DNA from: Hahella sp. KA22
GTDB lineage: Bacteria; Pseudomonadota; Gammaproteobacteria; Pseudomonadales; Oleiphilaceae
NCBI RefSeq assembly: GCF_004135205.1
Contig: NZ_CP035490.1
Coordinates: 2,745,501 to 2,809,500, forward strand
Length of the DNA: 64,000 nt
Direction: 5' to 3'
This document shows positions 12,282 through 48,837 of this stretch, one piece after another. Within the stretch, counting starts at the first letter, position 1. The number at the start of each line of letters is the position of its first letter. The translations under genes and the position numbers were made by a program. Under the pieces are notes generated by a model, which worked only from the letters and a program-made list of their open reading frames with translations, ran no database searches and was not told the DNA's origin.

Positions 12282-12866
12282 TTAAGCGGCCAGGTTTTTG
12301 GCGACGAAATCCCAGTTCACCAGATTCCAGAACGCATTCATGTAGTTAGGGCGAACGTTTCTGTAATCGATGTAGTAAGCGTGTTCCCAAACGTCAACGG
12401 TCAGCAGTGCGGTTTTGCCGTCAGTCATTGGCGTGCCTGCGTTGCTGGTGTTGAAGATTTCCAGTGAGCCGTCAGCGTTTTTGACTAACCAGGTCCAAGC
12501 GGAACCGAAGTTGTTAACGGCTTTGTCAGTGAATTGGGTTTTGAAGCTTTCGAAGGAACCGAAAGTTTTGTTGATGGCGTCCGCCAGCTCGCCAGTAGGC
12601 TCGCCGCCGCCGTTAGGGCTCAGGCAGTGCCAGTAGAAAGTGTGGTTCCAGATCTGGGCGGCGTTGTTGAAAACGGGGCCGCTCTTGGAAGCCATGATAA
12701 TCTCTTCCAGAGACTTCCCTTCGTACTCAGTTCCGGGCACCAGACCGTTCAACTTATCGACGTAAGTTTTGTGGTGCTTACCGTAGTGGTATTCGATAGT
12801 TTCTTCGGAAATGTGCGGCGCAAGCGCATTTTTTTCATAAGGGAGGGCAGGAAGTTCAAATGCCAT
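12282..12866 (-). CDS. sodB: Superoxide dismutase (Fe)
   Basis: The 194-residue cytoplasmic enzyme converts superoxide to hydrogen peroxide and oxygen. It is nearly collinear with E. coli SodB. The metal ligands are His27, His75, Asp158 (in VDVWEHAYY) and His162. The stretch NHTFYWHCLSPNGGGEPTG favours the iron type over the manganese type. The ATG start is preceded by a purine-rich GACGGAGAAA. It is monocistronic; a GC-rich hairpin at 12247-12270 lies after the stop but lacks a T-tract. Iron-dependent control is usual for sodB, but no Fur box was recognised at this gene. Confidence 0.97.
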   Translation of the reverse strand: MAFELPALPYEKNALAPHISEETIEYHYGKHHKTYVDKLNGLVPGTEYEGKSLEEIIMASKSGPVFNNAAQIWNHTFYWHCLSPNGGGEPTGELADAINKTFGSFESFKTQFTDKAVNNFGSAWTWLVKNADGSLEIFNTSNAGTPMTDGKTALLTVDVWEHAYYIDYRNVRPNYMNAFWNLVNWDFVAKNLAA

Positions 12867-12884: not shown

Positions 12885-13076
12885 TTAAGTGTGTAATCCC
12901 GTGTAAGTCTCTGATTCTAGAGTATACAGACTGAGTAAGAAGAGATAGCTCCGAATCTCCGGAAATTCAGCCTGCAGGCTCAGGGTCATCACAGTATCAC
13001 CCTGGGTATTGATGCCGGTCAGATGGCGACCGACAGAATTCTTTTGGTTGATCGCGCAGAATGATATCACCCGCAT
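12885..13076 (-). CDS. Possible small protein upstream of sodB (doubtful)
   Basis: A 63-codon minus-strand frame lies in the 359-base gap between purK and sodB. Its codon choice resembles real genes of this window, and the other two frames on that strand are blocked. I recognise no family. Just upstream, CTTGAAA (complement of 13099-13105) and CTCCATAT (complement of 13077-13084) are 14 bases apart and resemble a sigma-32 promoter. Transcription from it would begin inside the frame, so an internal start is more likely: a GTG-ATG pair at about 12989-12994 with AGGG upstream, giving about 34 residues. The frame ends 18 bases before the sodB start. It may instead be leader sequence of sodB. Confidence 0.3.
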   Translation of the reverse strand: MRVISFCAINQKNSVGRHLTGINTQGDTVMTLSLQAEFPEIRSYLFLLSLYTLESETYTGLHT

Positions 13077-27820: not shown

Positions 27821-28810
27821 ATGTCCGAGAGCCAGAAGTACCGAGGCTTTGACTTCATCGGCGATGTCCACGGATGCGCCAGAACGCTGGAGGCATTGCT
27901 GGAGAAGCTCGACTACCGGAAGATCAACGGCGTATACAGTCATAAGCATCGTCAGGCGGTTTACGTTGGCGATATCGTCGACCGCGGCCCCCGTATCCGA
28001 GAGGCGCTGCATATTGTGCGGGATATGGTGGAGCACGGCAGCGCGCGCATTGTCATGGGAAATCATGAGTACAACGCCCTGGGCTATTGCACCCGGGCCC
28101 GCCCGGGCAGCGCTCATACCTATTTGCGTGAGCATACGCCCCGTCATGAGCGTTTGATTCGGGAAACGCTGGATCAGTTCGCAAATTACGGGCATGAATG
28201 GAATGAGTTTCTTGAATGGTTCATGACGCTGCCGCTGGTGATTGACGATCAGTGTTTTCGGGTTGTGCACGCATGCTGGGATCATGATCTGATTTCACAG
28301 TTCCTGGAGCATCATCCTGATGGTCTTATCACGGAAGACTTTCTGCATGCCTCCACCGTGCGCGACAGTTTTGCCGGCCATGTGATGGACCGTTTGTTGC
28401 GCGGCACGGATATGAAACTTCCGGATGGTATGTCTATTCGCAGCAGTGATGGCTTCGTTCGCACCGCATTTCGCACCAAGTTCTGGAAGGCGGAGCCTGA
28501 AACCTACGGCGACGTCGTGTTTCAGCCGGACGCTCTGCCTGACGAAGTGGCGGAAAGACGCTTGTCAGAGCGAGAGCGGCGCATGCTGTTGTTTTATGGT
28601 CTGGAAGAGCCGCCCTTGTTCGTCGGACATTACTGGCTGCAAGGCGCGCCGCGTCCTATTCGTCCCAATATCGCCTGCCTGGATTACAGTGCAGTGAAGT
28701 ACGGCAAGCTGGTGTCCTATCGGCTCGAAGCGGGAGCCCGCAAACTGACGGCGGACAATTTTGTCTGGGTCGATGTCATGCGTGAAGCGGGGGGCGCCGC
28801 CGGGCGCTGA
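27821..28810 (+). CDS. Metallophosphoesterase (calcineurin-like / PPP-like)
   Basis: The 329-residue protein has the three metallophosphatase motifs: GDVHG at 14-18, GDIVDRG at 50-56 and GNHE at 80-83. Further metal histidines are likely in VVHACWDHD and VGHYWLQG. These coordinate a di-metal centre that hydrolyses phosphoester or dinucleotide substrates. It resembles ApaH/PrpE-type and protein-phosphatase-type enzymes, but the substrate cannot be assigned. It lies four bases after nadK and four bases before the rhomboid gene, so all three are one operon. Confidence 0.9.
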   Translation: MSESQKYRGFDFIGDVHGCARTLEALLEKLDYRKINGVYSHKHRQAVYVGDIVDRGPRIREALHIVRDMVEHGSARIVMGNHEYNALGYCTRARPGSAHTYLREHTPRHERLIRETLDQFANYGHEWNEFLEWFMTLPLVIDDQCFRVVHACWDHDLISQFLEHHPDGLITEDFLHASTVRDSFAGHVMDRLLRGTDMKLPDGMSIRSSDGFVRTAFRTKFWKAEPETYGDVVFQPDALPDEVAERRLSERERRMLLFYGLEEPPLFVGHYWLQGAPRPIRPNIACLDYSAVKYGKLVSYRLEAGARKLTADNFVWVDVMREAGGAAGR

Positions 28811-28814
28811 GCAT

Positions 28815-29705
28815 ATGGAGAAAGTTTGCGATATCCCAATCGAAGAAGACATTGAGTCGTTGTATCGCTATCTGCGCAGCAGGGGCGTTGCGATATGGGT
28901 CACCGAGAATGAAGGCCGGCAGGAAATATGGGTTAAAGATCCCGCCGCCAAACCTGTCGTGCTGGACTGTTATCAGCGCTTCAAAGAAGATCCTGGCGTT
29001 CGCGAGCGACTGGATGAGGCTGTAAGCGGGCAACCGCAGCCCAATGGCAACAGTCTGACAATGCAGTTTAAGCCTTTTCCCTGTATCGCGTGGTTACTGC
29101 TGACCTTGCTGGCGGCGGCTTTGTATACTGGCTTCGGCGACTTTCAGAGCAGTCGTTATTTCTTCATTATTGATCGTTTCCAGTTGCCCTATGGGGACTT
29201 GCCCTCCCGCGTGCAGTCCTTGTTGTTTACGCTGCAGAAAGGGGAGTGGTGGCGTCTGCTGTCTCCCGCATGGTTGCACTTGGGGCTGGCGCACTGGCTG
29301 TTTAACTCTCTTGCATTGTGGATATTCGGGCGCTCTCTGGAAGTCTTGTTTAGCCGAGGCGGATTCGTTTCGTTCATTCTGGGGGCGGCGATCTTCAGTA
29401 ATCTCGCTCAATATCTGGTGGCGGGGCCTGCGTTTGGAGGTTTCTCCGGCGTTGCTTACGCCTTGGTTGGCGCACATGCGGCGGGTTGGGCGTTAGCGCC
29501 GGGTATGCGGATGTGGGCGCCTTCCGCGATGGTGATTTTCAGTATTGTGTGGATGTTGGCGGGGATGTTGGGCGTCTCTGATCAATTTGGCGTGTCGTTC
29601 GCCAATACCGCGCACTTCGTCGGCTTTTGGTTTGGCTTGACGTCAATGGCGTTGTGGCTAAAAACAAGTGGAAAAAAAGACGGGGAAGGCATCAGCGGAG
29701 CATAA
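28815..29705 (+). CDS. glpG: Rhomboid intramembrane serine protease (GlpG-like)
   Basis: The ATG at 28815 gives 296 residues and lies four bases after the previous stop. A soluble cytoplasmic domain (about 1-75) is like that of GlpG. Six membrane segments follow from about residue 88. The catalytic serine is Ser211 in GGFSGVAYAL and the histidine is His267 in the AHF motif. Asn164 and His160 (AHWLFN) form the oxyanion side. These equal Ser201, His254, Asn154 and His150 of E. coli GlpG. It cleaves membrane-embedded substrates, which are unknown here. A candidate small RNA is read from the opposite strand just beyond, overlapping the end of the gene. Confidence 0.92.
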   Translation: MEKVCDIPIEEDIESLYRYLRSRGVAIWVTENEGRQEIWVKDPAAKPVVLDCYQRFKEDPGVRERLDEAVSGQPQPNGNSLTMQFKPFPCIAWLLLTLLAAALYTGFGDFQSSRYFFIIDRFQLPYGDLPSRVQSLLFTLQKGEWWRLLSPAWLHLGLAHWLFNSLALWIFGRSLEVLFSRGGFVSFILGAAIFSNLAQYLVAGPAFGGFSGVAYALVGAHAAGWALAPGMRMWAPSAMVIFSIVWMLAGMLGVSDQFGVSFANTAHFVGFWFGLTSMALWLKTSGKKDGEGISGA

Positions 29706-29809
29706 CGGGTAAACCAAATTGCAGAGCTGGTTTATCCAGCCTCCGTTGATGCGCATCCCCCAAGTAGCTGTGAATACTCTGATGAGAGCTGTGTGGGATC
29801 AAACACACA
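29672..29809 (-). ncRNA. Candidate Fur-regulated small RNA (leftward)
   Basis: A leftward transcript is predicted from a start near 29809 to a T-tract (complement of the A-run 29672-29678), about 138 nt. Its end is a strong hairpin: GCATCA/TGATGC, CGGAG/CTCCG and GGGG/CCCC pair between 29741-29760 and 29682-29700. An inner stem TAAACC/GGTTTA adds to it, directly followed by GTCTTTTTTT. Near the 5' end GTGTG can pair with CACAC. No frame of note lies inside. Size, Fur-covered promoter and terminator fit a RyhB/PrrF-type iron-sparing RNA, but its sequence is not one I recognise. The last 30 or so bases are antisense to the glpG end. Confidence 0.55.
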
Positions 29810-29812
29810 ATG

Positions 29813-29835
29813 CAAATGATAATGATTATCATTTG
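29813..29835. promoter_or_regulatory. Fur box (perfect 11-base inverted repeat)
   Basis: CAAATGATAAT and ATTATCATTTG flank a single central G. This includes GATAATGATTATCATT, which matches 15 of 16 positions of the left part of the classical Fur 19-mer. Such a perfect site predicts strong iron-dependent repression. It overlaps the spacer and -10 of the leftward promoter at 29816-29843 and lies 87 bases upstream of the DUF1315 start. Confidence 0.88.
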
Positions 29836-29843
29836 TAAGTCAA
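29816..29843 (-). promoter_or_regulatory. Sigma-70 promoter of the candidate small RNA
   Basis: On the minus strand TTGACT (29838-29843) and TATCAT (29816-29821) are 16 bases apart. The Fur box covers the -10 element and almost all of the spacer, the classic geometry for repression. Expected transcription start is near 29809. Confidence 0.6.
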
Positions 29844-29921: not shown

Positions 29922-30206
29922 ATGTCCTTTGAAAATGCAGTAAAAAACCTGACTCCGGAGATCTATGAGGCCATGAAGACAGCCTTGGAGTTGGGGAAGT
30001 GGCCGGACGGCAAAAAATTATCAATGGAACAGAAAGAGCTCTGCATGGAAGCGCTCATCACCTACGAAATTTCCCACAATGTGCCTGAAGAGCAGCGGGT
30101 GGGGTATATAGAAAGAGATCGGCCGACGCCTTGCGCTTTGAAAGCGGCGGCGGTTGAATCCTCCTCTGGCGTATGGACGCCCGAAAGCGGCGTTTCCAAG
30201 CATTGA
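29922..30206 (+). CDS. DUF1315 family protein
   Basis: The 94-residue protein matches the DUF1315 (YeaC-like) family: LTPEIYEAMKTALELGKWPDGKKLSMEQKE, read in part, followed by an EALITYE helix and VPEEQRVGYIER. The ATG at 29922 with GGAG about eight bases upstream is preferred to an in-frame ATG 18 bases earlier. The role is unknown; the gene commonly sits next to DUF2797 and pepN, as it does here. A Fur box lies upstream but points more convincingly to the opposite strand. Confidence 0.85.
   Translation: MSFENAVKNLTPEIYEAMKTALELGKWPDGKKLSMEQKELCMEALITYEISHNVPEEQRVGYIERDRPTPCALKAAAVESSSGVWTPESGVSKH

Positions 30207-48759: not shown

Positions 48760-48837
<78 letters not shown>

Follow-up and report, generated by a model that had tools for sequence, protein, structure and literature searches.

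What does the leftward promoter at the end of glpG in Hahella sp. KA22 serve, and what is the hairpin that follows it? The window analysed here is a 64,000-nt stretch of the Hahella genome (G000, a single contig of 6.96 Mb), and the promoter lies between a glpG-type gene and a divergent DUF1315 gene (Table 1). Our analysis suggests that Hahella very probably makes a small regulatory RNA (sRNA) beside glpG, switched off by Fur. We further consider it likely that this RNA is a Fur-repressed, trans-acting, iron-sparing sRNA of a divergent PrrF lineage.

Table 1. Positions in the window of the predicted sRNA gene, its neighbours and its predicted sodB site
Feature	Position	Strand	Remark
Predicted target site in sodB leader	12889..12900	-	-34 to -23 of the start codon at 12866
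glpG-type rhomboid protease gene	28761..29705	+	Pfam Rhomboid, NRho; last 34 nt antisense to sRNA end
Predicted Fur-repressed sRNA, ~138 nt	29672..29809	-	5' end set ~7 nt past -10
Terminator: hairpin 29683-29760, T-tract 29672-29678 (seven Ts)	29672..29760	-	Sequence and fold
Segment UAUUCACAGCU	29766..29776	-	11 perfect pairs predicted with sdhC start (sdhC on G000:C1, outside window)
PrrF-like core CUCAUCAGAGUAUUCACAG	29768..29786	-	Unique in own genome at ≤1 mismatch
5' hairpin UGUGUG-UUUGAUCC-CACACA	29790..29809	-	Fold and compensatory changes
Segment GUGUGUUUGAUCCC	29795..29808	-	Predicted sodB-leader pairing, rank 80/1859
Fur palindrome CAAATGATAATNATTATCATTTG, 23 bp	29813..29835		Over -10 and spacer; putative Fur binding
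-10 hexamer TATCAT	29816..29821	-	Promoter scan
-35 hexamer TTGACT	29838..29843	-	Promoter scan
DUF1315 gene, divergent from sRNA	29922..30206	+	Pfam DUF1315

Predicted promoter, Fur site and transcribed strand

The leftward promoter (TTGACT-16-TATCAT) matches at 10 of 12 positions and is the best of three promoter-like matches between 28500 and 31000, where shuffled sequence serves as the baseline with a mean of 1.2 matches. The initial annotation described a perfect 23-bp Fur palindrome over its -10 and spacer, and this holds to the base. CAAATGATAATNATTATCATTTG has 0 mismatches, being perfect except for the central base because its length is odd. It is the sole palindrome match in the 64 kb even when up to three mismatches are allowed, and none of 100 shuffled windows contains a comparable one. 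The 19-bp Fur core (29815-29833) ends 1 nt beyond the -10 hexamer, placing the Fur site over a sigma-70 promoter as in a Fur-repressed iron-sparing sRNA gene. Among 74 loci with homology to known Fur-regulated sRNAs, 73 show this Fur/-10 geometry according to the cited passages of Livny et al. (2008; PMC2527527). Of 30 distinct family loci, 29 have a minus-strand -35 hexamer that agrees with TTGACA at five or all six positions, taken 16-18 nt upstream of a TATCAT-like -10 inside the Fur site and as the best of four spacings. From these sites we infer both Fur binding and transcription. When iron is present, Fe-Fur on the -10 and spacer would block the promoter. When iron is short, an RNA of ~138 nt would be made, consisting of the 5' hairpin, an open core CUCUCAUCAGAGUAUUCACAGCU and the intrinsic terminator.

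The long hairpin reported ~138 nt downstream, with seven Ts behind it on the same strand, is present as described, and its stems recur in the minus-strand fold with a spacer of 3 nt between the terminator stem and the T-tract. An intrinsic terminator lies at sRNA distance from the promoter with no protein gene in between. It is absent from a simple terminator scan, which permits loops of 3-8 only. The 138-nt minus-strand RNA folds with -48.3 kcal/mol (z -3.7), and none of 200 shuffles folds as well. As was also pointed out initially, the plus strand folds better (-53.7 kcal/mol, z -5.1) but lacks the T-tract; its greater stability counts against the sRNA reading. T-runs of 5-8 occur on the sRNA strand across the family, as extracted by a script whose 60-nt crop clipped the long Hahella terminators. 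The other strand has no comparable tract, since only 0-4 As stand in the 8 nt before the hairpin.

The 5' part of the RNA gives further evidence on the strand. A folded element (z < -1) lies between Fur box and core in 33 of 37 loci, the exceptions being L062, likely not a true locus, and all three copies of L098. In the distinct family RNAs (30/30) the 5' element has z values of -1.3 to -6.2. In nine 5' hairpins of fixed length, 48 of 54 cells are paired and four of the six pairs show changes on both sides, counted on ungapped letters and in a register chosen by us because MAFFT misplaced hairpin 1. Registers slipped from -3 to +3 leave 14/54, 29/54, 12/54, 15/54, 27/45 and 10/36 cells paired, 27/45 being the best slip. 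The promoter, the T-tract and the covarying 5' hairpin all point to the minus strand, in agreement with the sRNA gene originally suggested there, its Fur-type promoter, its RyhB/PrrF architecture and its strand-specific T-run. The reading of the locus as a conserved small peptide was rejected: the spacing between box and core shifts by single bases (36-38 nt) among Hahella-type loci, and no minus-strand frame overlapping the sRNA holds an ORF of at least 60 aa. Two minus-strand ORFs (29094-29477 and 29189-29377) are located farther left, antisense to glpG.

The Fur site might instead serve the divergent DUF1315 gene, the hairpin being a mere terminator of the glpG end with no sRNA made at all. 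The DUF1315 start lies only 87 nt rightward of the palindrome, and the gene adjoins the core in all 31 family genomes tested (tblastn), and the more stable plus-strand hairpin would suit such a terminator. The conserved core between promoter and terminator, the T-run confined to the minus strand and the minus-strand -35 hexamers speak against this proposal, as do core-bearing loci outside the family, beside which neither DUF1315 nor GlpG is found. We regard it as improbable.

Conservation, synteny and probable kinship with PrrF

A DNA search with the locus, run on 38 relatives, matched 12 of them at E ≤0.001; the match in genome G015 is a Fur box before another gene. Outside the close species, conservation covers the promoter and the opening stretch of the RNA, with a terminator that varies freely. 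A pattern made of a Fur half-site and TCTCATCAG occurs in 96 of 111 genomes and 11 of 16 genera of the family, which includes a genus (g12) that may be Marinobacter; the reversed pattern has two matches in the same 111 genomes. Three of the 98 matches appear by eye to be due to chance (G015 and one each in G052 and G081), leaving 95 genomes. The pattern is missing from 15 of the 111 genomes, which counts against the sRNA reading. All 20 aligned homologues, themselves selected by CTCATCAG, carry CUCUCAUCAG without change. Locus L040 in G015 may be a relative: its Fur box is followed by a possible RNA with UAUCACAGCUC replacing the usual core, its cognate sdhC pairing comes 2nd of 901, and neither GlpG nor DUF1315 lies within 2.1 kb.

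GlpG is found on the side of the core opposite to DUF1315 in 30 of the 31 family genomes tested (tblastn), the exception (L009) being a contig end. This constancy and the 34-nt overlap with the glpG 3' end would be expected of a cis-antisense regulator of glpG. The overlap, which the initial annotation had put into its heading, does exist, but it consists of the fast-changing terminator and looks incidental. The conserved core lies outside glpG, and core-bearing loci beyond the family do not adjoin that gene. Regulation of glpG in cis is therefore, in our judgement, very improbable indeed.

The core connects the sRNA of the preferred reading with PrrF. CUCAUCAGAGUAUUCACAG is identical to the PrrF core CUCAUCAGGCUAAUCACGG at 15 of 19 positions, a partial agreement, and the pattern CUCAUCAG-NN-UANUCACRG has a single occurrence in the Hahella genome at ≤1 mismatch. 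The Rfam PrrF model (RF00444) gives the locus 26.8 bits (E 0.78) against a curated cut-off of 90, and this counts against membership. The locus is unannotated by Rfam because this score is far below the cut-off. With gathering scores as the limit, the only Rfam matches in the whole window are tRNAs, and neither RyhB nor NrrF matches at this locus. ARAGORN additionally places a tRNA-Pro(ggg) at 48761-48837 that is not in the Rfam tRNA model's list at cut-off. Sub-threshold RF00444 matches of 26.8-35.4 bits occur at five of the eight loci given, this one included. At E ≤10 the model matches in 80 of 101 family genomes, none above the cut-off, and in 6 of 14 control genomes at the same lax E. Within the Hahella genome, G000:C1:6148194 scores higher (28.8 bits) than the locus under study and was nevertheless rejected as a paralogue, because it matches by its terminator and has neither Fur box nor core. 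G000:C1:1891099 was set aside as a Fur box without a core.

Model R1, for which 15 family RNAs were used with the promoter left out and no Pseudomonas included, finds the window RNA with 22.3 bits (E 0.001), a match that is not independent of its kin since 3 of the 15 training RNAs have a Hahella-type 5' end. R1 also finds the authentic PrrF locus L082, which scores 127.5 bits with RF00444, and the intermediate locus L083, with 17.3 bits each, the next background match having 13.2. Counting against the main reading, an order-wide R1 search with stricter filters missed the Hahella locus and those of L082 and L083. The order-wide tally of 142 out of 293 overstates the number of homologues. Eighteen non-family loci were read from it: eight have a PrrF-type core and a Fur-like box (12-17 of 19 positions), five carry CTCATCATCGCT without a verified box and five match by the terminator alone. 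Of 14 loci obtained by a DUF1315 scan, nine are from neither Hahella nor J085, and R1 matches none of these nine significantly (13.2 bits at best, E 0.33). L106 and L112 carry CUCAUCAGGCUAAUCACAG, a form intermediate between the Hahella and PrrF cores.

From this graded core series we infer homology to PrrF. Alternatively, an iron-sparing, Fur-repressed sRNA may have arisen without PrrF descent, its core converging on the same kinds of mRNA starts. Such convergence would account for the Rfam score far under the cut-off, for a 5' hairpin and terminator that differ in sequence and size, and for PrrF-like loci outside the family that do not neighbour GlpG or DUF1315. It fits poorly with the intermediate cores of L106 and L112 and with the shared layout, in which a Fur site is followed by a hairpin or stems, the core and the terminator, and we think it unlikely. 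Descent from the PrrF lineage is the preferred reading, and the initial description as a new sequence family does not stand: the PrrF core is shared, and the Hahella RNA appears as a divergent branch below the Rfam cut-off.

Two side observations concern other families. A Fur-like box (12-17 of 19 positions) precedes tandem PrrF-like units that each have a core and a terminator, with five copies in L258 (G619), three in L259 (G470) and two each in L260 (G407), L264 (G467), L265 (G405) and L268 (G025). According to the cited passages of the literature, tandem prrF pairs are known only from P. aeruginosa, P. denitrificans and one P. mendocina strain (PMC2851614, PMC4211561). In addition, L100, L101, L102, L105 and L109, all of one other family, carry TTTTCTCTCATCATCGCT before a strong terminator and possibly represent another sRNA group with a related seed.

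Predicted targets and their pairing in relatives

Predicted complementarity to mRNA starts of iron proteins is found in Hahella and is mixed in its relatives. A windowed, accessibility-weighted duplex score was computed between the sRNA 5' domain and each of 1859 crude ORF starts, taken from 2.06 Mb of the Hahella genome. This score replaced an earlier one with unlimited interaction length, which was uninformative (p by shuffled targets 0.007-0.91 for sdhC and 0.000-0.44 for sodB). sdhC ranks 6th of 1859, with 11 perfect pairs predicted over its GUG start, and a ferritin-domain protein ranks 8th. They are followed by a succinyl-CoA ligase subunit (13th), a molybdopterin Fe4S4 oxidoreductase (14th), NadA (19th), the ribonucleotide reductase small chain (27th), a SufB/D protein (28th) and citrate synthase (39th). 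Six of the top 40 are iron-linked (SdhC, ferritin, Fe4S4 oxidoreductase, NadA, ribonucleotide reductase, SufB/D) compared with none of 39 controls from ranks above 400 (Fisher p 0.026 two-sided, 0.014 one-sided), in a classing of ours that was not blind. Most of the remaining 34 have no evident iron link, which counts against the main reading. So does the position of sodB, which ranks 80th of 1859 with a score that 16 of 200 shuffled RNAs attain.

The seed complement CTGATGAGAG, complementary to the sRNA core CUCUCAUCAG over its full length, has 18 occurrences in the Hahella genome, one of them the sRNA locus itself, and the reversed pattern has seven. Only one occurrence, L066, resembles a target at a start codon, and it lies outside the ranked stretches. 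At this site (G000:C1:1158157-1158166) the start codon of a cytochrome c gene (Pfam) falls within CTGATGAGAG, making the gene a candidate further target.

In the relatives, each cognate start was ranked against 900 starts of the own genome. Out of 901, sdhC ranks 3rd in G006, 3rd in G004, 9th in G003, 368th in G012, 45th in G007, 79th in G016 and 2nd in G015; the corresponding ranks of sodB are 10, 66, 69, 47, 2, 14 and 350. The ranks of sdhC in G012 and of sodB in G015 count against the main reading. Among 200 shuffled RNAs, the sdhC score is reached by 4 in G000, 4 in G006, 9 in G003, 118 in G012, 32 in G007, 58 in G016 and 2 in G015, and the sodB score, in the same order, by 16, 2, 65, 12, 1, 12 and 57. 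Over seven RNAs, with G004 dropped as near-identical to G006, the combined p values are 4e-7 (sdhC) and 1e-5 (sodB) for the ranks and 5e-4 and 2e-4 for the shuffles, values that are too optimistic because the genomes are related. Conservation of the sdhC site by itself proves nothing and is counted against, since the site lies partly in conserved coding sequence. Of the targets suggested at the outset, sdhC is thus strongly and sodB moderately favoured as predictions in Hahella, and the relatives give a mixed picture.

According to these predictions, the RNA may act with Hfq, whose gene is present like that of fur and whose binding we presume. The segment 3' of the core would cover the sdhC start codon with 11 base pairs, and the sodB leader would be paired by the 5' hairpin sequence. 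The mRNAs of sdhC, sodB and some other iron proteins would then be translated less and become less stable, sparing iron. Pairing is predicted differently in G007 and G016, where sodB engages the UCUCUCAUCA core itself. It is conceivable, though we lean slightly against it, that the iron-sparing regulon is kept while the pairing is rewired across one orthologous, syntenic sRNA gene. If so, target identity would be under stronger selection than the pairing site.

Relation to known iron-responsive sRNAs

Known from Pseudomonas and Azotobacter, PrrF-type iron sparing would thereby reach Hahella and the rest of its family, in which the Rfam cut-off has hidden it. A graded series of one syntenic gene may reveal by what means an sRNA of drifting sequence retains its targets, and the iron response of these marine bacteria becomes directly testable. 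Among analogues, IsrR is a low-iron, iron-sparing sRNA. RyhB, NrrF and BrrF are likewise low-iron sRNAs that spare iron, as the cited passages describe (PMC4211561, PMC7377471), and PrrF is said there to share no sequence homology with RyhB (PMC4211561). The cited part of PMC2851614 describes PrrF for Pseudomonas and names homologues in Azotobacter and Neisseria. We found no report joining PrrF with Hahella or with Oceanospirillales in the open-licence PMC literature, in which one paper mentions PrrF together with Marinobacter. The Hahella locus may be among the 26 orphan candidates of Livny et al. (PMC2527527).

ArrF of Azotobacter vinelandii, which we liken to the Hahella RNA by description, is an iron-repressed PrrF homologue regulating sodB (PMC2851614, cited part). 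PrrF of P. aeruginosa lowers sdhCDAB, acnA and acnB according to the same passages (PMC2851614), and sdhC is the top iron-linked prediction here. Like PrrF1 and PrrF2 (RF00444), the Hahella RNA has a Fur site over its promoter, a 5' hairpin, a core of the form CUCAUCAG..UA.UCAC.G and an intrinsic terminator. It differs from PrrF, which measures 114-116 nt, in its length of ~138 nt and its long terminator. It is also single-copy by core search and located between glpG and DUF1315, whereas the bona fide PrrF locus L082, like L083, has neither GlpG nor DUF1315 beside it. The Hahella RNA is probably of the Fur-repressed, iron-sparing kind, related to RF00444 but formally outside it.
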